Positions 4,921 to 60,408 of a DNA stretch of 60,408 bases are shown one piece after another. The stretch covers positions 1-60,408 of the forward strand of contig JACPBX010000009.1 in NCBI GenBank assembly GCA_016180085.1, read 5' to 3'. The stretch's first letter is position 1. Each line of letters opens with the position of its first letter. Source of the stretch: Candidatus Woesearchaeota archaeon. Lineage in GTDB: Archaea > Nanobdellota > Nanobdellia > Woesearchaeales > UBA10216. The position numbers and the translations under genes were made by a program. The notes below the pieces were generated by a model, which saw only the letters and a list, made by a program, of their open reading frames with translations, was not told the origin of the DNA and ran no database searches.

Positions 4921-5328
4921 ATGAAGCTTTTTTCGGCATCGTGGAAATCGAGCAGGAAGGCGTCAAAGCAGAGAAAATTCAGAATCAACTCTCCTCTGCA
5001 CATTAAGAGGTCTTTGCTCGCCGCGCCTCTGGCAGAAGACCTTGCAAGAAAATACGGCACAGGGGCAGTTTCGTTGAGAGAGGGTGATAGCATAAAGGTT
5101 GCCAGGGGTGAATTCAGGGGCCTGGTTGGAAAGGTTAGCGCTGTAAGCCTGAAGAAAGGCAATGTTTCGGTAGATGGGGCTGAACGTATCAGGAAGGATG
5201 GCACAAAATCATTTTTCCCTCTCAAGCCATCAAATCTTTTGGTCACAGAATTGAACATCGAGGACAAGCGAAGGATAGCAAGCCTGACGAGAAAGCAGGA
5301 ACAAGGCCAAGAACGGAGAAGGGGATGA
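4921..5328 (+). CDS. rpl24: Ribosomal protein uL24 (L24)
   Basis: Large-subunit assembly initiator with a KOW motif. The KOW segment (GDSIKVARGEFRGLVGKV) lies at about residues 56-75. The N-terminal half matches the archaeal/eukaryotic form (SSRKASKQRKF, then SAPL-like). The 135 residues are normal. The stop is 4 nt before the eS4 start. Confidence 0.95.
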   Translation: MKLFSASWKSSRKASKQRKFRINSPLHIKRSLLAAPLAEDLARKYGTGAVSLREGDSIKVARGEFRGLVGKVSAVSLKKGNVSVDGAERIRKDGTKSFFPLKPSNLLVTELNIEDKRRIASLTRKQEQGQERRRG

Positions 5329-17536: not shown

Positions 17537-18358
17537 TCAGGCCCTTCTCGCCACTTCGACAGCCGGCTTCATGCTTTTCCACGCTGCTTCAAAAAGGATT
17601 TCAAGGGCTGACGCGAAGAATGGCGTGTTTACCCAGATGCCCACGTCGTATGTTGGATGCACTTCTTTGTCGTCCATGACCATGAACATCATTTCCTTGC
17701 CATCAACTATGCAGAATCTGCCCTTTGCGTCAGTGTTCCTTACTTCCGCAACATCAGATATCATCTCAAGGGCCTGCTTGTTCTCCTTTGTAATCGGGGC
17801 AGCTATCCTTATCTTCACGCCCCTTTTCTTGACTTTTTCCATTGTTGGCTTTAGCCCCTCAATCTTTCTGAGGAATCCCTGGGAAGTCGTCATCAGCGTA
17901 ACTGTTTTCTCTGCGTTTTTAATCATGAGGTCAAGGTGGTTGTAGAGGTTGTGCCTTCCCTTAAGGCTGCCTGAAAGGTCTGATGGCTCAACAAGCTCGA
18001 TGCCCTGCTGGTGCAGCATTTTGAGCTCATCAACAATTTCTGTGTTCCTTACCTCGTCAAGCCGCTTTATTTTCTTTTCCGACTCTTCCTTCATGTGCTT
18101 TTTAACCCTTTCAACAACCTCTGTCGGCTGCACTGCAAGGTATTTTATTGGCTTCCCGAACTTCATTATGACAAAGCCTTTCTTCTCAAGGCTTTCGAGA
18201 ACATCATAACTCCTGCTTCTGGGAACGTTGGCTATATCCGACAATTCGCCGGCAGTTGCAACCCCTCTTGACAGGAGTGCGGTCCAGATCTTGACTTCGT
18301 AAAGGTTAAGCGAGAAATAAGTGCGCAGCTTACTGAGGAACTCTTCTTTGACAATCAT
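17537..18358 (-). CDS. TrmB-type transcriptional regulator (paralogue 1)
   Basis: TrmB-family regulator; characterised members bind sugars or other effectors and control carbon metabolism genes. An N-terminal winged helix (about residues 8-75) carries the recognition region VPRSRSYDVLESLEKKG, followed by a coiled linker and a C-terminal PLD-like/TrmB sensor domain with FCIVDGKEMMFMV and VGIWVNTPFF. Start ATG 18358 is preferred because GGAGGCG (18364-18370) sits just upstream; the frame extends to 18448 without a good site. It diverges from the acyl-CoA synthetase gene, and perfect palindromes lie between them. A second copy lies at 50010-50807. Confidence 0.86.
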   Translation of the reverse strand: MIVKEEFLSKLRTYFSLNLYEVKIWTALLSRGVATAGELSDIANVPRSRSYDVLESLEKKGFVIMKFGKPIKYLAVQPTEVVERVKKHMKEESEKKIKRLDEVRNTEIVDELKMLHQQGIELVEPSDLSGSLKGRHNLYNHLDLMIKNAEKTVTLMTTSQGFLRKIEGLKPTMEKVKKRGVKIRIAAPITKENKQALEMISDVAEVRNTDAKGRFCIVDGKEMMFMVMDDKEVHPTYDVGIWVNTPFFASALEILFEAAWKSMKPAVEVARRA

Positions 18359-49709: not shown

Positions 49710-49921
49710 CGCCTTCTTCTGAGCGACTTCTCTATCTTCTGCTCCTCACGCTCAATCTTTATTTCCTCAAGCGCCACCCTTTTTGTGATTGCAAAAAGGT
49801 TTTCATCAATCCTTGCTATCCTCCTCTCCATCAGGACAAGGATTCTTAATGAATAGACAATGGCGGCAAGCGTTCCTATTATGACGGCAAGAATTACAAC
49901 CTGGATGTTTCCCTCTGGCAT
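49706..49921 (-). CDS. Small single-pass membrane protein with charged helix
   Basis: 71 residues from ATG 49921 (MPEGNIQVVILAVIIGTLAAIVYSLRIL, one membrane segment) followed by a charged helix (EEIKIEREEQKIEKSLRRRR) likely to be coiled coil. Frame open upstream to 49999 but this start is cleaner. The terminal RRRR is encoded next to the TFE stop; the two stop codons overlap by 2-3 nt. Function unknown. Confidence 0.6.
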   Translation of the reverse strand: MPEGNIQVVILAVIIGTLAAIVYSLRILVLMERRIARIDENLFAITKRVALEEIKIEREEQKIEKSLRRRR

Positions 49922-50009
49922 TCCATGCACCTCTTTTGTGATTTTATTGGTTTTTGTATAGTTGTGAAACTGATTTAAAAAGGTTTTGTTTTGGGGCATG
50001 ATTTGCTGC

Positions 50010-50807
50010 TTAAGCCTGCTTCATCGCTGCCCAGGCAGCCTCGAACATCTTTTCAAATGTGGCGGCAAAGAATTTTGACCTTACCCAGATGCCAACATCT
50101 GCTGCCGGGTTTGTTATTTCATCGTCAAGTGGCATCAAAACAACTTCCTTGCCATCAACAACACAAAACCTTGCGGGTGTGCTCGTGTGCCTGAGTTCGG
50201 CAAGGCTTGCAAGCTCCTCAAGCTGCGGCCTTACCTCGTTCGTGATGTGGGCGGCAATCCTGATCTTCAGTTTTTTTTCCTTTGCTTTCTTAAGCGCACT
50301 TTTCAGCACATCCTTTTTCCTCATCAAGCCGGAGGTTGTGGTGGTGATTATGACGCTTTTCTCTGCATTCTTTATGATTCTCTCCAAAACATGGTAAAGG
50401 TTTTTCCTGCCTTTTATGCTTGCAGTTAGGTCAAGGGGGTCTATGTCCCGTATGCCGCTTTTATAGATAATTTTTAACTCATCAATAAGCGGGCTCTGTT
50501 CAACTTTGTTAAGAAAGTCTTCCTGAAGCTTTACATCCTCAATAAGCTTTTTCCTTACTTTGTCAATAACATGCTCGGGCTGCACAGCAATGTATTTTAT
50601 TGGCTTCCCAATCTTCATTATAATAAACCCTTTCTTCTCAAGGCTTTCGAGAACATCATAACTCCTGCTTCTGGGAACACCCGCGACGTCAGACAACTCC
50701 CCAGCCGCGGCAACGCCCTTCGTAAGAAGCGCAAGCCAAAGCTTGGATTCGTAGCTGTTAAGGCCTATATCTTTCAGCTGATTAATTAATTCCTTCTGCA
50801 TCAACAT
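50010..50807 (-). CDS. TrmB-type transcriptional regulator (paralogue 2)
   Basis: 265 residues, same architecture as 17537-18358: N-terminal winged helix with VPRSRSYDVLESLEKKG, helical linker and sensor domain (FCVVDGKEVVLMP, DVGIWVRSKFF). A 50-nt block in the recognition helix (50629-50678) is identical to paralogue 1 (18177-18226). ATG 50807 is 27 nt from a TATA box. Its promoter faces the candidate oriC. No copy of the paralogue-1 palindromes was seen upstream. Confidence 0.85.
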   Translation of the reverse strand: MLMQKELINQLKDIGLNSYESKLWLALLTKGVAAAGELSDVAGVPRSRSYDVLESLEKKGFIIMKIGKPIKYIAVQPEHVIDKVRKKLIEDVKLQEDFLNKVEQSPLIDELKIIYKSGIRDIDPLDLTASIKGRKNLYHVLERIIKNAEKSVIITTTTSGLMRKKDVLKSALKKAKEKKLKIRIAAHITNEVRPQLEELASLAELRHTSTPARFCVVDGKEVVLMPLDDEITNPAADVGIWVRSKFFAATFEKMFEAAWAAMKQA

Positions 50808-50828
50808 GGGGTTTGGGAAAGGACCGCA

Positions 50829-50839
50829 CTATTTAAACC
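50829..50839 (-). promoter_or_regulatory. TATA box of TrmB paralogue 2
   Basis: On the minus strand GGTTTAAATAG, centred 27 nt before ATG 50807; leaderless transcript likely. Confidence 0.55.
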
Positions 50840-50889
50840 TTTCTGTTTTTTATTATTTAAAAGTAACAAAAATACAAGCAACCCAACCT

Positions 50890-50915
50890 CACACCCCACG
50901 GTTTCTGGTGGAAAC
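50890..50915 (-). promoter_or_regulatory. ORB-like element 1
   Basis: On -, dyad GTTTCCACCAGAAAC (50901-50915) followed by CGT and the G-string GGGGTG (to 50890). Matches the general layout of archaeal origin recognition boxes (TTCCA..GGAAAC, then G-string) for Orc1/Cdc6. Confidence 0.55.
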
Positions 50916-51067
50916 ACCCGGAATCCACAACAACAACACCCAAAGCCAACGAATAATTCAATATAGAAGAATATTCGGTTTGTTGTTTTTCCCGTCACAC
51001 AATCAAAACATCCAGTTCAATCATATTGATTCTGGTTCCGTAATGTTTATTAATACAACCACTGCAA

Positions 51068-51092
51068 GTTTCCATAAGAAGTAATGGGGTGG
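51068..51092 (+). promoter_or_regulatory. ORB-like element 2, overlapping the cdc6 start
   Basis: GTTTCCATAAGAA then GTAA then TGGGGTGG. Degenerate dyad but the TTTCCA and G-string halves match element 1. It overlaps GTG 51089, so it could also autoregulate cdc6. Confidence 0.45.
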
Positions 51093-52303
51093 ATGTTTTG
51101 AAAGGAAAAAATCTCACGCATTTTTTTGAAACATACCTTAATAAAGAGTCTGTTTTTGCAAATAAAAATACGCTCCAAGGGGGTTATATCCCCTCAGAAC
51201 TTGTTCATAGGGATGAGCAGATCAGACAGGTTGCTTCAATCATTGCACCAGCTTTGCGTCTGGAAAGACCGTCCAACCTTTTTATTTACGGAAAAACTGG
51301 CACAGGGAAGACGATTACGGCGCGCCACACCACAGACAACCTGATTGCGATAGCAAAAAAGCAGTCCATCCCGGTGCAAAGGCTGTACATCAACTGCAAG
51401 CTGAAGAGCGTTGCTGATACGGAATACCGGCTCATTTCAAGCCTCGCCCGGGAGTTTGGCAAACCGCTCCCATCAACAGGCCTCCCAACTGACGACGTTT
51501 ACAAGGCGTTTTTTTCTGCTGTTGACTCCACAAGGCAGCTCGTTATACTTGTTCTTGATGAGGTTGATCAGCTTGCCAAAAAAGCAGGGGATGGGGTGTT
51601 GTATAACCTTACGAGGATAAATGAGGAGTTGCACCATGCCCAAATCTCACTTATAGGTATTTCAAATGACCTTATGTTTGTTGATAACCTTGACCCCAGG
51701 GTTAAGTCCTCTCTCTCAGAGGAAGAGCTGCTATTCCCGCCATATAATGCGCTGCAGCTGCAGGATATCCTTGCCGGCCGCTCTGCTCTGGCATTTAAGG
51801 CCGGGGCGCTTGAATCGGGGGTTATTGAAAAATGCGCGGCATACGCTGCAAGAGAGCATGGTGACGCTAGGCGGGCTCTTGAGTTGTTGAGGGTTGCAGG
51901 GGAGCTGTCTGACAGGAAAGGCTCTGCGAAGGTCAGCATTGCCGATGTTGATGATGCAGAAGAAAAGATTGAAAGAGACAAGGTAGTAGACATTGTCGCA
52001 ACCCAACCCAGGCAGGCGCAGGTGGTTTTGCACGCAATCCTTGAAATTGGCAGGGGTTCGCCAAAATTTATTTTTACTGGTGAAGTTTATGAGCTTTACA
52101 AAAAGTGCTGTGTGGAAATAGGCCTTAGGCCCCTTACTCAAAGAAGAGTATCTGATATTTTGTCAGAGCTTGACATGCTTGGCATGATTACGGCCCGGGT
52201 TATTTCTAAAGGTCGTTACGGGAGGACAAGGGAAATTATGCTTGCTCCTCAGGCAGCCACGCCGGCTGTTAAGCGCATCCTGGCAGAGGCAGTTGGCTTA
52301 TAG
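51089..52303 (+). CDS. cdc6: Orc1/Cdc6 replication initiator
   Basis: Origin-binding AAA+ protein that loads MCM. 404 residues: AAA+ with Walker A GKTGTGKT (68-75), Walker B LVLDEVD (154-160), sensor-1 region GISND, sensor-2 helical part (EHGDARRALELLRVAGELS), then a C-terminal winged helix (TGEVYELYKKCCVEIGLRPLTQRRVSDILSELDMLGMI). GTG 51089 is the longest start. The origin-like region lies immediately upstream. Confidence 0.95.
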   Translation: MDVLKGKNLTHFFETYLNKESVFANKNTLQGGYIPSELVHRDEQIRQVASIIAPALRLERPSNLFIYGKTGTGKTITARHTTDNLIAIAKKQSIPVQRLYINCKLKSVADTEYRLISSLAREFGKPLPSTGLPTDDVYKAFFSAVDSTRQLVILVLDEVDQLAKKAGDGVLYNLTRINEELHHAQISLIGISNDLMFVDNLDPRVKSSLSEEELLFPPYNALQLQDILAGRSALAFKAGALESGVIEKCAAYAAREHGDARRALELLRVAGELSDRKGSAKVSIADVDDAEEKIERDKVVDIVATQPRQAQVVLHAILEIGRGSPKFIFTGEVYELYKKCCVEIGLRPLTQRRVSDILSELDMLGMITARVISKGRYGRTREIMLAPQAATPAVKRILAEAVGL

Positions 52304-52308
52304 CCTTA

Positions 52309-54006
52309 TTGTATTTTGATTGGGTGGGTCTGGTGGAAGAGGGTTTGTCTGGGCAGGGTCCTGAGGAGGCAGTATGGAAAAAGAGGAGTGTGAGGGAGTT
52401 TTTAAAACGAAAAATGCTTGTCAGCCCGGAGTTCCTTGGTTCGGTCAAGGAAATAAGTTCTGAAGAGTTCAGGAGGATCACAGAGAGTAATTCCGAAAGC
52501 GCCCAAAGCGTCCTTGTTATTGACAAAAAGGTCGATGAACTGCTTAAAAGAAATGAGCCGGGCATTAACTGGCTCGAGCTTGAGAAGTCTAAAGTTATGT
52601 CCGAGAAAAGGCGCAAGTTGGAAGCTTACGGCACGTTCCTTGACACCTTGCTTTCCCCTCCTGCGGGCCCGAGCCTTCCACACACAGCCACTACACACCC
52701 CCCTCCTTCCTTGGCCACTCCAGAGGTTTCAGGCACCCCCAGAGTTAAGGTTGTGTTTTCTTACTCTGCCAATCCAGTCAAGCGTGAAATGGGTGACTTC
52801 GTCAGTTATTATCTTGCCCGCTACAAGGCCGCCCAGGGCATTCTTATGCAGCATTCGGGGCTTTCTTCCCTTGTTCAAATCAGCAGGCTGAGGTCGTGGT
52901 CCGCCAGCAATTCCGGCTCTGAGCAGGTTTCAGTAATAGGAATGGTTGTCGATAGGCAGCAGACGAAGCAAGGGCACCTTGCGGTTTCTGTTGAAGACCC
53001 GACAGGCACCATTGATGTTATCATAAATAAAACGCGGAAGGAGCTTTTCGAGACAGCATCAAACCTTGTGTTTGATGAGGTTGTTGCCATTTCAGGCACC
53101 TTAAGAAGCGGCACGCTCTTTGCGGCAAACATTGTTTTGCCTGATGTTCCTGCGAGGGAGCCAAAGTATTCGCCAACCGAAGGCTACGCGGTTTTTATGT
53201 CAGACCTCCATTTTGGCTCTGCCCAGTTCCTTGAAGCGGATTTCAGGAAATTCCTTAAGTGGATAAATGGCGGCCTCGGCAACCCTTCGCAGAGGGAAAT
53301 CGCGGGCAAGGTGAAGTATGTTCTGATCGCTGGCGATGTTGTCGATGGCGTGGGGGTTTATCAGGACCAATATGACGAGCTTTCAGTAAAGGATGTTCGT
53401 GACCAGTACAAGATGTGTGCTGAGTTTTTGTCCGAAATCCCGCAAAACATTAAAATTATACTTTCCCCGGGCAATCACGATGCTGTGCGCGCCGCCGAGC
53501 CCCAGGACGCGTTTTCGGGCGACTTTGCCGCTCCCCTTTTGAAGCTCCCTAACGTGGTTTGCGTCTCAAATCCTGCTGTTGTGAACATAGATGCTTCTGA
53601 GGGCTTTCCCGGGTTTGACGTTTTGCTTTACCACGGCTACAGCTTTGATTACTACGTCGCGAACGTTGATTCAATCCGCCAGCAGGGGGGGTATGAGCGC
53701 GCAGATCTGATTATGAGGTTTCTTCTGCAGCGCAGGCATCTTGCGCCCGCCCACACCTCCACGTTAATACTGCCTGACCGGTCTTCCGACCCTCTATTCA
53801 TAAACATTGTTCCGGACATTTTTGCGACAGGCCACATTCACCGCACATCAGTCTCGGATTACAAGGGAATAACCTTGATTAACAGCTCCTGCTGGCAGGG
53901 CAAGACGAAGTTTCAGGAGCGGCTGGGCCACAGCCCGCAGCCTTCAAGGCTCCCGGTTTTTAACCTTAAGACCCGTGCAGCCAAAATAATAAATTTCGGA
54001 AAATAG
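52309..54006 (+). CDS. polB: DNA polymerase D small subunit DP1 (exonuclease)
   Basis: Proofreading 3'-5' exonuclease subunit of family D polymerase. 565 residues: N-terminal helical region, OB fold (about 200-275, VIGMVVDRQQTKQGHLAVSVEDPTGTIDVIINK) and a calcineurin-like phosphoesterase with metal-binding residues D299-x-H301 (DLHFGS), D343 (GDVVDG), N389-H390-D391 (GNHD) and G508-H-x-H511 (GHIHRT), so the nuclease looks intact. TTG 52309 is the longest start; GTG 52324 and TTG 52345 possible. DP2 follows 52 nt later. Confidence 0.95.
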   Translation: MYFDWVGLVEEGLSGQGPEEAVWKKRSVREFLKRKMLVSPEFLGSVKEISSEEFRRITESNSESAQSVLVIDKKVDELLKRNEPGINWLELEKSKVMSEKRRKLEAYGTFLDTLLSPPAGPSLPHTATTHPPPSLATPEVSGTPRVKVVFSYSANPVKREMGDFVSYYLARYKAAQGILMQHSGLSSLVQISRLRSWSASNSGSEQVSVIGMVVDRQQTKQGHLAVSVEDPTGTIDVIINKTRKELFETASNLVFDEVVAISGTLRSGTLFAANIVLPDVPAREPKYSPTEGYAVFMSDLHFGSAQFLEADFRKFLKWINGGLGNPSQREIAGKVKYVLIAGDVVDGVGVYQDQYDELSVKDVRDQYKMCAEFLSEIPQNIKIILSPGNHDAVRAAEPQDAFSGDFAAPLLKLPNVVCVSNPAVVNIDASEGFPGFDVLLYHGYSFDYYVANVDSIRQQGGYERADLIMRFLLQRRHLAPAHTSTLILPDRSSDPLFINIVPDIFATGHIHRTSVSDYKGITLINSSCWQGKTKFQERLGHSPQPSRLPVFNLKTRAAKIINFGK

Positions 54007-54058: not shown

Positions 54059-57000
54059 ATGAAGCCCAACATTAAAAATGAAGCGAGCCCCGAAATGGAA
54101 GCGTATTTCGGCGAGCTTGATGGAAAGTTGAAACTATGCTACGCCTCTGCTCAGCTGGCGAGGCTGAAAGGCCACGACCCTGAGCCTTTTGTGGACATTC
54201 CTCTCGCAAAAAATCTTGCGGAGAGGGTTGAGGGGCTGGTTTCGGCTGTAGCGCCCCAGCTTCTTGGCAGCGGGGTGGCGGCGAGGATACAGGAGCTTGA
54301 AGGCAAGTATGGCGCGCTCGCCTGGGAAGTCGCCCTTATTATTGCTGAAGAAGTTGCCAGTGAGAAGTTCTGCAAGTTTAAGGATTGGCGTGAGGCGCTG
54401 GAAATGGGGATCAGAACAGGCTTTGCCTACCACACAACAGGCGTTGTCTCAGCTCCACTGGAGGGTTTCATCGAACTGAAGATTAAGAAGAGGAAGGACG
54501 GCAAGGATTACTTGGCTGCTCTTTTTGCAGGCCCTATTCGCGGGGCTGGGGGGACGGCAGCGGCATTTTGCCTCGTAATCGCGGATTACTTGCGGAAGAA
54601 AGCAGGGTTTGATGTTTATGACCCCGATGAGCAGGAAGTCAAGCGCTTTGTTGCAGAGCTGGATGATTACCACGAGCGTGTTACAAATCTTCAGTATAAG
54701 CCCGGCGAGGAGGAAATCTCTTTTCTGGTTAGGAATTGCCCTATTGAGGTTGACGGTGACCCTACAGAGCGGTTTGAAGTGAGCAACTACAAGGACCTGC
54801 CAAGGGTTGGCACAAACAGGATTCGTGGCGGGATGTGCCTTGTTGTTTCAATGCTTGCCTTCAAGGCTCCAAAGTTGTGGAAGGAAATGAAAAGGCTCCA
54901 GGAGCAGTTTTCAATTGACTGGTCCTTCCTTGAGAAATTCATGGCAATCCAGAAAAAGAAAAAAAGCATGGGCAGAGGGAAAAGCACAGAGTCAAAAAAG
55001 CTGGAGCCGGATTTCACGTTTATCTCAGACCTTGTTGCCGGAAGGCCTGTTATCACACACCCTCTCAGGCATGGAGGGCTTCGTCTCAGGTATGGGAAAA
55101 CAAGGGCCAGCGGCTATTCAGCTGCGGCTCTAAGCCCTGCAACTATGGTTGTGCTTGACAGGTTTATTGCAACGGGAACCCAGCTTAAACTTGAAAGGCC
55201 AGGCAAGGCAGCGTCAATCACACCATGCGATTCTATTGATGGGCCGGTTGTCAGGCTTTTGGATGGCTCTGTTTTAAGGATGGGGGATGATGTTGTTGCC
55301 AGGCAGCATGCAGCTTCTGTCGCAGAAGTGCTGTATCTTGGGGACATCTTGGTATCATACGGAGATTTTTATGACAGGGTTCATGTGCTTGTGCCTCCCG
55401 GCTATTGTGAAGAGTGGTTTGCTGAAGAGGTAAAGAAGAAAGCTTCAGAAAAATTTGGCGAATTCTCATTTGCCATTCTGTCAAAAGCTCTTTCTGTGCC
55501 GGAAGGGGAGTTGCGTGCAGTTCTCTCTAATCCATTTCAAAGGCCTTCTGCAGAACTTGCACTTGCACTTTGCGAGTCACTTGCGGTGCCGGTTCACCCC
55601 TTTTTTACATACTTTTGGTCAGCAGTAAGCCCTGAGCAACTGGTTTCCCTTATTTCCCTGTTGCTGAATGCCAGGCTGGTTGTTGATGGCAAGAAGGCAA
55701 AGCTGGTTGTTCCTGTAGGCCTATCACAGCAGCATAAAGATGGAAAAAGGGCCCTGGAGCTGATAGGGCTTCCGCACTTGTTTGTTAATGGTGAATTTGT
55801 TGTTATTGAGCACCAGGAAGCTCTCTCTTTTTTGGTGTCGCTCGGCATCAATATCAGAGCAGTTCTTTCCTCTGAAGAAACGAGCAAGTCGTTTTCAGAA
55901 CTTATAAAGGAAAAACTCGAAGTGGTTGAAGCAGCATTAGTTCAGTTGCCAAGCAACCCGTCACAGCCTCCTGGTCAGCAATTGCAGAATGGCTTAGAGC
56001 TTGTTAGGCTTATCTCGCTCTTTCCGATAAGGGACAAGGCAGGCACATTTATCGGTGCGAGGATGGGCAGGCCTGAAAAGGCGAAGATGCGCCGCCTGAC
56101 GGGCAGCCCGCAGGTGCTTTTTCCCGTAGGTGATGAAGGCGGCAGGCTTCGTTCTTTCCAGGAAGCAATTTCACACGGAAAAGTGGTGTCTGATTTTCCA
56201 ATCCATTACTGCCCAGAATGCAAAATCCAGAACATTTACCCTGTTTGCGGGACGTGCGGAGGCCGGGCGGTAAAGATGCTTTTCTGCGGCAAATGCGGTG
56301 TTGTCGAAAAATGCGTTCATGGCGCCGAAGCAAAGCCCTTTTCAACAAGGGCTTTGGAAATAGGCAGTGTTTTTGATTCTGCAATGAAAGCCCTTGGTGA
56401 AAAAACAGCCCCCGACCTGATTAAAGGTGTTCGCGGGACTTCCAACAGGGGGCACATCCCAGAAAACCTTGCGAAAGGCGTGCTTCGGGCAAAGCACGAG
56501 CTGTGCGTGAACAAAGACGGCACAGTTCGGTATGACATGAGTGAGCTTCCCCTGACACATTTCACCCCATCAGAAATCAGGACGCCTGTTAAAAAGCTTG
56601 TTGAGCTCGGCTACACGAAAGACGTGAATGGCGCCCCTCTCGTTGATGAGCATCAGCTGCTGGAGCTGAAGCCCCAGGACCTTGTCTTGCCTACAAACGT
56701 AGAGTCAAATGCCGAAAGCTCTTATGCTGTGCTGTTCCGGGTGGCAAAGTTTGTCGACGATTTGCTTGCTCGCTTTTACAAGCAGGAGCCGTTTTACTGC
56801 CTCAACTCAAAAGAGGACCTGGTTGGGCATCTTGTCCTCTGCATAGCACCGCACATCTCTGCAGCAATAGTGGGCAGGATTATCGGGTTTTCAAGCACGC
56901 AGGGCTTTTTTGCCCACCCGCTTTTTCACGCGGCAATGAGGAGGGACGCTGATGGCGATGAGGCGAGCGTAAGCCTTGTGCTTGATGCGCTTCTTAATTT

Positions 57001-57700
57001 TTCCAGGCAGTTCCTGCCAGACTCGAGAGGGGCCAAAACAATGGACAGCCCGCTTGTTCTCACCTCTAGGCTTATCCCGGCAGAGGTTGACGATATGGCG
57101 CACAGGTTTGATGTTGCTTGGTCTTACCCTCTTGAATTTTATGAAGCTGCTTTGCAGTGGAAGCAGCCTCAGGATGTAAAGGTTGAATTGCTTGGCTCCC
57201 GCATTGGCACCCCGGGGCAGTATGAGGGGATGGGCTTTACCCATAAGCTTTCAAGCATTAATGCCGGTGTCACTTGTTCCGCCTATAAAACCCTTCCTTC
57301 AATGGAAGAGAAGCTAAAGGGGCAGATGGTTCTTGCCGAAAGGATAAGGGCTGTTGACGCCCAGGACGTTGCGAGGCTTGTCATCGAGAAGCACCTCTTG
57401 AAGGATGTGAGGGGCAACCTCAGGAAGTTCTCAACCCAACAGTTTCGCTGCCTTAAGTGCAACACTAAGTTCCGCAGGCCTCCCCTTATTGGCAGCTGCA
57501 ACGAGTGCGGCGGCAAGATTCTGTTTACAATATCTGAAGGCTCCATTATCAAGTATCTCGAGCCTGCCATAAGCCTTGCTGAGAAATACGCTGTTTCGCC
57601 CTATCTGCTTCAGGTACTTGACCTCACCAAGAAAAGGGTTGAGGCCGTATTCGGCAGGGAAAAGGAAAAGCAGGAAGGCCTTGGCAAGTGGTTTGGTTAA
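54059..57700 (+). CDS. polC: DNA polymerase D large subunit DP2 (polymerase)
   Basis: Catalytic subunit of PolD, 1213 residues, no intein. Conserved elements: DYHERVTNLQYKPGEEE, GPIRGAGGT, a Zn ribbon (CPECKIQNIYPVCGTCGG and CGKCGVVEKC), the catalytic centre around DADGDEAS with D965 and D967 matching the two catalytic Asp of Pyrococcus DP2, and a second Zn motif near CLKC/CNECGG. The C-terminal QEGLGKWFG is a PCNA-interacting motif. ATG 54059. Partner DP1 is directly upstream. Confidence 0.96.
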   Translation: MKPNIKNEASPEMEAYFGELDGKLKLCYASAQLARLKGHDPEPFVDIPLAKNLAERVEGLVSAVAPQLLGSGVAARIQELEGKYGALAWEVALIIAEEVASEKFCKFKDWREALEMGIRTGFAYHTTGVVSAPLEGFIELKIKKRKDGKDYLAALFAGPIRGAGGTAAAFCLVIADYLRKKAGFDVYDPDEQEVKRFVAELDDYHERVTNLQYKPGEEEISFLVRNCPIEVDGDPTERFEVSNYKDLPRVGTNRIRGGMCLVVSMLAFKAPKLWKEMKRLQEQFSIDWSFLEKFMAIQKKKKSMGRGKSTESKKLEPDFTFISDLVAGRPVITHPLRHGGLRLRYGKTRASGYSAAALSPATMVVLDRFIATGTQLKLERPGKAASITPCDSIDGPVVRLLDGSVLRMGDDVVARQHAASVAEVLYLGDILVSYGDFYDRVHVLVPPGYCEEWFAEEVKKKASEKFGEFSFAILSKALSVPEGELRAVLSNPFQRPSAELALALCESLAVPVHPFFTYFWSAVSPEQLVSLISLLLNARLVVDGKKAKLVVPVGLSQQHKDGKRALELIGLPHLFVNGEFVVIEHQEALSFLVSLGINIRAVLSSEETSKSFSELIKEKLEVVEAALVQLPSNPSQPPGQQLQNGLELVRLISLFPIRDKAGTFIGARMGRPEKAKMRRLTGSPQVLFPVGDEGGRLRSFQEAISHGKVVSDFPIHYCPECKIQNIYPVCGTCGGRAVKMLFCGKCGVVEKCVHGAEAKPFSTRALEIGSVFDSAMKALGEKTAPDLIKGVRGTSNRGHIPENLAKGVLRAKHELCVNKDGTVRYDMSELPLTHFTPSEIRTPVKKLVELGYTKDVNGAPLVDEHQLLELKPQDLVLPTNVESNAESSYAVLFRVAKFVDDLLARFYKQEPFYCLNSKEDLVGHLVLCIAPHISAAIVGRIIGFSSTQGFFAHPLFHAAMRRDADGDEASVSLVLDALLNFSRQFLPDSRGAKTMDSPLVLTSRLIPAEVDDMAHRFDVAWSYPLEFYEAALQWKQPQDVKVELLGSRIGTPGQYEGMGFTHKLSSINAGVTCSAYKTLPSMEEKLKGQMVLAERIRAVDAQDVARLVIEKHLLKDVRGNLRKFSTQQFRCLKCNTKFRRPPLIGSCNECGGKILFTISEGSIIKYLEPAISLAEKYAVSPYLLQVLDLTKKRVEAVFGREKEKQEGLGKWFG

Positions 57701-59346: not shown

Positions 59347-60072
59347 CTATTCCAGTACCTTCAGCCTGCCTGGCAGCACCTCAAAAAGGTCGCCTGCCTT
59401 GGTCATCTCACTTATCAGAAGCTCTGCGTTGCCTCCGCTGAACTTTTCGGTGAACTTGATGGCAACAGCGCTTATGTCAGCTCCCCTCCCAGTGTCGAGC
59501 TCTTTTATTATGCGGTAAATCTCAATCTTTCCTTTGCTCACATAATCTATCCCATCCAAATCCCGGTCTTGCATGCCCTCTCGGTTTTTCCCGGCCGCCT
59601 TCACAACTGTTTTTTCATTACCTGCATAACTTTGCGCCTTCGCCTGCATCAGCAGTTCAAGCTTTCTTACCTCAGCCCACTTTACGTTATTCGCGGGCTT
59701 CAGCACTTCGGGAGCGATGTAAGTTTCCCCGCCGTAATGCCGTGGTCTGCCTATGATTGCCGTGAAATCGCCCACGGCCAGCTTTTTCAGCATGGCTTCA
59801 TTGTCAAAGAATCTAAGTCTTATCTGCCCGGTCCCGTCATCAACAACCGCATCTTCCCAGCCTTCGCCCTCCTGAGACTCGTTCTTTGCAACCACGGTTG
59901 CAAGAATATTAACCCTTTTAATCTGCCTGTTGCCTGTGTTGAGCACTGTCGTGCCGTCTTCTGCCAACTCAAAAGCCCCTTGCAGAATTTCATTAATGCT
60001 GGCTTTTTGTGCAGCATCCCTTTTGAACTGTTTCTCCTGCAACATTTTACATTGTGCAACTTCCAGGCTCAC
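59347..60072 (-). CDS. RPA-like single-stranded-DNA-binding protein (OB fold + winged helix)
   Basis: Resembles the RPA32-type subunit: one OB fold (about residues 50-140, RQIKRVNILATVVAKNE ... VVDDGTGQIRLRFFDNEAML ... VGDFTAIIGRPRHYGGETYIAPEVL) and a C-terminal winged helix (about 180-240, KGKIEIYRIIKELDTGRGADISAVAIKFTEKFSGGNAELLISEM). 241 residues from GTG 60072, which overlaps the mcm stop (GTGA) as in a translationally coupled pair; ATG 60045 is an alternative. Role in ssDNA binding at the fork is inferred from fold and neighbour. Confidence 0.82.
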   Translation of the reverse strand: MSLEVAQCKMLQEKQFKRDAAQKASINEILQGAFELAEDGTTVLNTGNRQIKRVNILATVVAKNESQEGEGWEDAVVDDGTGQIRLRFFDNEAMLKKLAVGDFTAIIGRPRHYGGETYIAPEVLKPANNVKWAEVRKLELLMQAKAQSYAGNEKTVVKAAGKNREGMQDRDLDGIDYVSKGKIEIYRIIKELDTGRGADISAVAIKFTEKFSGGNAELLISEMTKAGDLFEVLPGRLKVLE

Positions 60073-60408
60073 ATTCTGGAGAGGAAGCCGTATCTTGGCT
60101 CGTAAACATCTCCGGAGCGCTTGAGCTTCTCTATTATCTCATCAACCTCAGACTTGCTTAGCCCTTTCTCGGTAGCCAGCCTTGCGACGTCCTCTACCGG
60201 TATTGTCTTGCCAAGCTCCTGCTCGAGCTCCTCAAGTATTTGCTTGATTACAAATATTTTTTCCCTTTGCGATGCCGGTATGCCGGTCGCGATGCGGTCT
60301 ATGTCGATTTGCCCGGTTTCCTTCTCCCTTCCTATCTGCATTAGGCAGAAGACCAGCAATTCAATGGCCCTCCTCGCATCCTCCCTTGTCACCTTTTCCG
60401 AGAGCCTT
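60069..60408 (-). CDS. mcm: MCM replicative helicase, C-terminal part only
   Basis: The frame is open to the window edge; the visible residues are the MCM C-terminal end: AAA+ lid (RLSEKVTREDARRAIELLVFCLMQIGREKETGQIDIDRIATG) and the winged helix (KTIPVEDVARLATEKGLSKSEVDEIIEKLKRSGDVYEPRYGFLSRM). The helicase catalytic domain lies outside. Directly upstream of the RPA-like gene with 4-nt overlap. Confidence 0.9.
   Translation of the reverse strand, partial: RLSEKVTREDARRAIELLVFCLMQIGREKETGQIDIDRIATGIPASQREKIFVIKQILEELEQELGKTIPVEDVARLATEKGLSKSEVDEIIEKLKRSGDVYEPRYGFLSRM

Follow-up and report, generated by a model that had tools for sequence, protein, structure and literature searches.

The intergenic region directly upstream of the orc1/cdc6 initiator gene (cdc6) in an uncultured Woesearchaeota archaeon is very probably a chromosomal replication origin of the oriC1 type. 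The region lies in a stretch of 60,408 nucleotides (the window), which is the whole of contig C40 (JACPBX010000009.1) in a 45-contig draft genome of 1.0 Mb (G000), and it contains two origin recognition boxes (ORBs) whose G-strings face outward from an A/T-rich segment. A third ORB lies before the tbp-mcm genes of the same genome, and a model in which an oriC1-type origin is combined with ORBs in the cdc6 and tbp-mcm promoters is, in our judgment, probable. An earlier note on this DNA had proposed a candidate origin at this position, and that proposal gained support from the uniqueness of the elements in the genome, the conservation of the pair across the order, the lack of an ORB in the 16 kb fetched around a second cdc6 paralogue, and the GC skew of one relative, G028. 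The observations made here concern sequence, conservation, orientation, spacing, uniqueness in the genome, and skew in that one relative. Order-level comparisons covered 59 genomes, and an exact search at the phylum level covered 194 genomes; TATA boxes and transcription starts are predictions from sequence throughout.

Two outward-facing ORBs upstream of cdc6

The left ORB (TTTCCACCAGAAACCGTGGGGTG) occupies positions 50892 to 50914 on the minus strand, with its G-string directed away from cdc6, and has a counterpart in most relatives. The right ORB (TTTCCATAAGAAGTAATGGGGTG) occupies positions 51069 to 51091 on the plus strand, with its G-string directed into cdc6. Two ORB-like elements had been noted previously at essentially these positions, as had the A/T-rich DNA between them; the inter-ORB segment (50915 to 51068), a proposed unwinding element, is 63% A+T versus 51% for the window. 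Both ORBs satisfy the published archaeal core, TCCA..GAAA..GGGGT (PMC4164010), in that TCCA-N3-GAA is followed by a G-string; the consensus CTTCCAGTGGAAACGAAAGGGGT is quoted in PMC4153887. The pattern TCCA-N3-GAA-N5-GGGGT, which was chosen after the sites had been seen and is thus post hoc, matched exactly twice in the 60-kb window versus about 0.008 matches expected. With the published motif weighted evenly (at least 15/20), 10 window sites were found versus 5.2 expected, and this motif was dropped as a stand-alone detector because it was too weak in the window; the two ORBs were the only ones among the 10 sites to retain the two half-sites together with the G-string. A genome-wide search for the element, as had been suggested in the earlier note, returned the pair and one ORB before tbp-mcm as the close matches in G000 and no others. 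The ORB pair was accepted as real because it is conserved, nearly unique in the genome, and positioned at cdc6.

The pair is conserved across the order

Comparison of the region with relatives indicated that the outward pair is kept across the order. Among 58 named cdc6 loci with at least 600 bp of upstream DNA, 49 had both elements, the left one being on the minus strand and the right one on the plus strand, with G-strings outward. The inner segment was richer in A/T than the locus in all 54 loci with both ORBs (mean of 0.82 versus 0.64), the corresponding values for the window being 0.63 and 0.51. A weight matrix built from the order's cdc6 upstream regions yielded 127 sites of at least 20 bits when counted in those same regions, a partly circular figure, and no such sites in cdc6 coding sequence of the same length or in shuffles. 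A pattern search of the 59 order genomes gave 136 hits, of which 58 preceded cdc6, in 41 genomes, and 41 preceded tbp-mcm, in 38 genomes, versus about 22 hits in total for the reversed pattern, which served as the control for genome-wide ORB searches. In known archaeal origins, MCM is loaded between ORBs of opposing polarity (PMC6742236), and both the window and its relatives fit this layout of opposed ORBs around an A/T-rich unwinding element. ORBs were also present upstream of cdc6 in two genomes from other orders of the class (locus L289 of G073 and locus L290 of G094), and the outward pair was visible in L289; because of these occurrences, the ORB layout may predate this order.

A palindrome between the ORBs

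Between the ORBs, at positions 50957 to 50968, lies the palindrome TTCAATATAGAA (TTCWATATWGAA). In a motif count, TTCNATATNGAA, found at these positions in the window, was present in 22 of 65 cdc6 upstream regions versus 0.1 expected. In a genome search, TTCWATATWGAA had one match in G000, located between the ORBs, and nine further genomes likewise had a single match, upstream of cdc6. The gene on the other side of the gap, however, encodes a TrmB-family regulator (positions 50010 to 50807, minus strand), and the left ORB and the palindrome could in principle belong to its promoter and be unrelated to replication. The trmB gene is divergent in this genome, with the left ORB about 85 bp before its start, and the palindrome is commoner among named loci that have a trmB neighbor. 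Yet the left ORB was kept in 30 of 34 loci in which cdc6 has other upstream genes, as it was in 18 of 20 loci beside trmB, and the palindrome was found upstream of cdc6 in four genomes (G020, G023, G025, and G028) in which trmB lies 3 to 12 kb away. A TrmB operator reading of the two elements was rejected, since both remain near cdc6 without an adjacent trmB; comparison of loci indicated that trmB is dispensable for the ORB layout, and a trmB promoter unconnected with replication is very improbable. The interdependence of origin and TrmB promoter that had been envisaged earlier was not borne out by the same counts. Because the palindrome stays by cdc6 in the four genomes with a distant trmB, it is more likely to act at the origin than as an operator of trmB, and it is a candidate site for an origin factor.

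GC skew in a complete relative

With the window's own genome being a draft, GC skew was analyzed in complete relatives. For G028 (single contig, 1.30 Mb), a model with two free break points was fitted, blind to the locus, to 40 sampled stretches of 20 kb. The whole-sequence fit gave an origin at 760 kb and a terminus at 150 to 160 kb and was equalled in 0 of 200 block shuffles; third codon positions with gene-strand correction gave an origin at 770 to 780 kb (F = 125). The ORB gap of G028 is at 763.6 to 764.2 kb and its tbp-mcm ORB is at 781.5 kb, so the skew places the origin in the cdc6/tbp-mcm cluster. This result bears on the possibility that the ORBs are only transcriptional operators of replication genes, read by Orc1/Cdc6 or by another factor, with the origin elsewhere. 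The occurrence of the same element at a fixed TATA spacing before tbp-mcm, where there is no opposed pair (see below), speaks for such a role, but the cdc6 gap has an opposed pair, an A/T-rich interior, a conserved palindrome, and the skew break of G028, which makes an operators-only function quite improbable.

The adjacent initiator and a second paralogue

The cdc6 gene (positions 51089 to 52303, plus strand) encodes an initiator of 404 amino acids, as judged by Pfam, structural relatives, and alignment, and the closest solved structures are those of S. solfataricus Orc1-1 and A. pernix Orc1. In the latter, R345, R346, R367, and R369 are close to DNA (PMC9738581). With residue numbers transferred from A. 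pernix via a printed alignment, the equivalents of these winged-helix ORB contacts in the window protein are R352, R353, K374, and R376. The four positions were R, R, K, and R in 80 to 81 of 81 proteins, the equivalent of R367 being lysine throughout the order.

The genome encodes a second Orc1/Cdc6 paralogue (contig C15), in which three of the four ORB-contact residues were not aligned. The earlier note had named another cdc6-linked gap with a stronger ORB cluster as a finding that would count against the origin. No ORB was present in the 16 kb fetched around the paralogue gene, and the paralogue was therefore rejected as the site of a rival origin.

An ORB-TATA module before tbp-mcm

The third ORB, found in the genome-wide search, is at positions 5014 to 5036 of contig C4, upstream of tbp (5156) and of mcm (5840), which runs off the contig end. 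C4 codes for MCM residues 1 to 215; at its right end (60069 to 60392, minus strand), the window holds the 3' end of mcm, approximately residues 557 to 668, as identified by Pfam. Because each carries one end of MCM, C4 is taken to adjoin the window through mcm, with about 1 kb missing between them. On this arrangement, some 12 kb separate the pair from the third ORB, or more if an intein is present in mcm. In 35 genomes cdc6 and tbp were 5 to 28 kb apart on one contig, and they were convergent in 28 of these.

The geometry of this element was constrained. It was directed toward the gene in 40 of 41 hits, and the distance from G-string to TATA box was exactly 39 bp in most members of the window's own family and several other families and 53 bp elsewhere. 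When each of 27 families was given one vote, 20 had a TATA box at one of these two distances, with any other offset in at most 4. The 39-bp spacers had a mean identity of 48% between families (minimum, 31%). In the phylum, the exact module ORB-(38 to 54)-TTTATAAA was present in 60 of 194 genomes, versus 0 hits for the reversed control in the same genomes. The gap was 39 in 23 of the 62 matches (13 families) and 53 in 22 (14 families), other gaps accounting for 17 together. Thirty module loci were fetched, and 27 were mcm promoters, including two genomes of one family in which the module directly precedes mcm without tbp; of the other three, two were cdc6 regions from other orders, and one had no assigned context. 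One to four ORBs, usually one, were present at the tbp-mcm site, and tandem ORBs were mostly 83 to 86 bp apart, about eight helical turns. Because distance, orientation, and phasing are fixed, these features point to a putative promoter element instead of a titration cluster.

Initiator sites outside an origin, with a possible effect on initiator availability, are known from Haloarcula oriC2D and Escherichia coli datA (PMC3936714), and the tbp-mcm ORB might likewise be an initiator-titration site or even a second origin. Its closeness to the origin in the 35 linked genomes is in keeping with this, as is its occasional presence in several copies. However, a titration site requires neither a usual copy number of one, nor a gene-directed orientation, nor exact distances of 39 or 53 bp to the TATA box across families, nor the persistence of the ORB beside mcm where tbp has moved. 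Unlike oriC2D and datA, the additional ORB occurs alone or in copies phased at about 84 bp, at a fixed distance from a TATA box, and no dense ORB cluster free of promoter constraint, of the oriC2D kind, was found at tbp-mcm. We consider a second origin or titration site unlikely.

Another question is which protein would act at the mcm promoter. In Sulfolobus islandicus, Orc1-2 is a noninitiator whose target is a short ANTTTC element found in the promoters of damage-response genes (PMC9738581). Since noninitiator Orc1 proteins are known transcription regulators and the genome has a paralogue, the C15 protein might act in the manner of Orc1-2 in place of the initiator. As in the Orc1-2 regulon, an Orc1-family protein at promoters is proposed here; in contrast to that regulon, the mcm promoter carries the full initiator ORB, the same as at the origin, in a replication-gene promoter, and not ANTTTC elements in damage-response promoters. 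Moreover, the contact residues of the paralogue are mostly unaligned, and most relatives have no second Orc1/Cdc6 match at an E value of ≤1e-40, a cutoff that divergent paralogues could escape. Regulation by the paralogue is thus rather unlikely, and the initiator is preferred.

Two further observations concern this locus. In tbp promoters, two TATA-like boxes recurred 16 bp apart, at offsets of 23/39 or 37/53 from the ORB, and are perhaps a site of TBP self-control. In four relatives (G008, G009, G016, and G044), the MCM homology was interrupted by long in-frame stretches, the open frames reaching 1910 codons in length, which suggests inteins in mcm; an intein might have caused the contig break in the mcm of the window's genome as well.

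The ORB at the cdc6 promoter

A predicted cdc6 TATA box (TTTATTAA) lies at positions 51046 to 51053 on the plus strand, a location kept in six genomes of the genus. Within the genus, the right ORB starts 14 to 15 bp past the TATA box and covers the predicted transcription start, together with the GTG start codon of cdc6 in the case of the window. A third, minus-strand ORB was present near the cdc6 start in 36 of 73 loci, abutting the TATA box (overlap of 0 to 3 bp) and covering the predicted start in 30 of the 36. In many of the remaining loci, the right ORB ended 26 to 30 bp before the TATA box. Because an ORB sits over the predicted start, the initiator, when bound there, is predicted to block transcription of its own gene.

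Proposed mechanism and its weighing

By analogy with known families, Orc1/Cdc6 made from the adjacent gene would bind the two opposed ORBs; as at known origins, the A/T-rich DNA between them would then melt and MCM would be loaded there. The promoter geometry suggests two further steps. Orc1/Cdc6 bound over the cdc6 start would repress its own cdc6-polD operon, a step in which we have moderate confidence. From the tbp-mcm ORBs it would control transcription of the helicase operon, either as an activator or as a repressor, which seems fairly likely. ORBs thus appear to serve replication and transcription alike. We lean, with some reserve, toward Orc1/Cdc6 being a promoter-specific regulator in this order, one that would combine self-repression with control of TBP and MCM via TATA-spaced ORBs in a single circuit beside the origin that would tie the level of the initiator to helicase supply and to general transcription.

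Several points weigh against this picture. The distance between the ORBs varies (median, 238 bp; range, 63 to 383 bp), as does the number of elements. The promoter geometry at cdc6 differs by clade, with about half of the loci lacking the third ORB, and several families have no ORB before tbp-mcm. In G028, the cdc6 gap and the tbp-mcm locus are 17 kb apart, and the skew cannot discriminate between them. AR20, the only other complete relative examined, had no two-replichore skew with or without strand correction, so that of the skew analysis proposed in the earlier note, G028 matched the locus and AR20 gave no pattern. For Woesearchaeota, the protein side of the model and the DNA side alike are drawn from sequence. 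Finally, the evenly weighted published motif does not single out the two ORBs in the window, where by that measure the sites are unexceptional and might be a chance resemblance; the conservation of the elements, their uniqueness in the genome, and the zero control hits for the phylum-wide module make chance extremely improbable.

Comparison with known origins and regulators

The single origin of Pyrococcus abyssi is linked to cdc6, and its ORB repeats immediately precede the initiator and polD genes (PMC4010727; gene cluster, PMC2643942). The window likewise has ORBs directly before cdc6, DP1, and DP2. It differs in that its outward ORBs number only two, the unwinding region contains a conserved palindrome, one ORB is merged with the cdc6 promoter, and the genome has a third ORB before tbp-mcm. 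In Haloarcula hispanica oriC1, the unwinding region lies between two inverted ORBs with G-strings, and both ORBs and both G-strings are required (PMC3936714); inverted ORBs with G-strings also flank A/T-rich DNA here, whereas the A/T palindrome between them is a difference from the haloarchaeal oriC1. As in the autoregulation of bacterial DnaA (mentioned in PMC3936714), initiator sites stand in the initiator's own promoter beside the origin, although the proteins are unrelated and the helicase operon is included here. Orc1/Cdc6 proteins have been suggested to be gene regulators, since Pyrococcus Cdc6 binds regions beyond oriC (reviewed in PMC5333045). In the open-access literature, we found neither an mcm promoter described as carrying an ORB nor an account of a replication origin in Woesearchaeota. 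What seems new is the predicted ORB-TATA module at initiator and helicase promoters, the origin itself being of the known oriC1 type. If the model is true, it would be an archaeal counterpart to DnaA control of its own gene, with helicase and TBP added. With an initiator site fixed relative to the mcm and cdc6 TATA boxes, the question of regulation is directly testable with a few purified proteins.

Neighboring genes and further ORBs

The earlier assignment of neighbors to cdc6, DP1, DP2, and TrmB was upheld by Pfam, with the DNA polymerase D small subunit (DP1) at positions 52309 to 54006 and the large subunit (DP2) at positions 54059 to 57700, both on the plus strand. The description of the cdc6 gap as the longest of the window was roughly right, in that apparently longer gaps contain open reading frames, but the gap at 49710 to 50009 is similar, at 300 bp. 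The top named match of Orc1/Cdc6 (76% identity) was from a groundwater "Candidatus Woesearchaeota" genome, and Woesearchaeota also made up nearly all of the close named relatives. A second TrmB-like regulator, at positions 17561 to 18358 on the minus strand, is 52% identical to the origin-side TrmB, and two TrmB-like genes per genome recurred in most relatives.

A further ORB, single or tandem, was observed in six order genomes (loci L250, L251, L243, L245, L242, and L249), adjoining a small coiled-coil-like gene with an RDSFxRIKxE-like start, for which Pfam gave nothing above the cutoff (G021, G022, G040, G043, G047, and G056). The position of the ORB relative to this gene varied, and a third ORB class at this gene was dropped on account of that inconstancy and the empty Pfam result. 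In G020, a strong ORB (locus L253, positions 296 to 316) lies before a gene without a Pfam match, which is followed by FEN1, recognized by eye.
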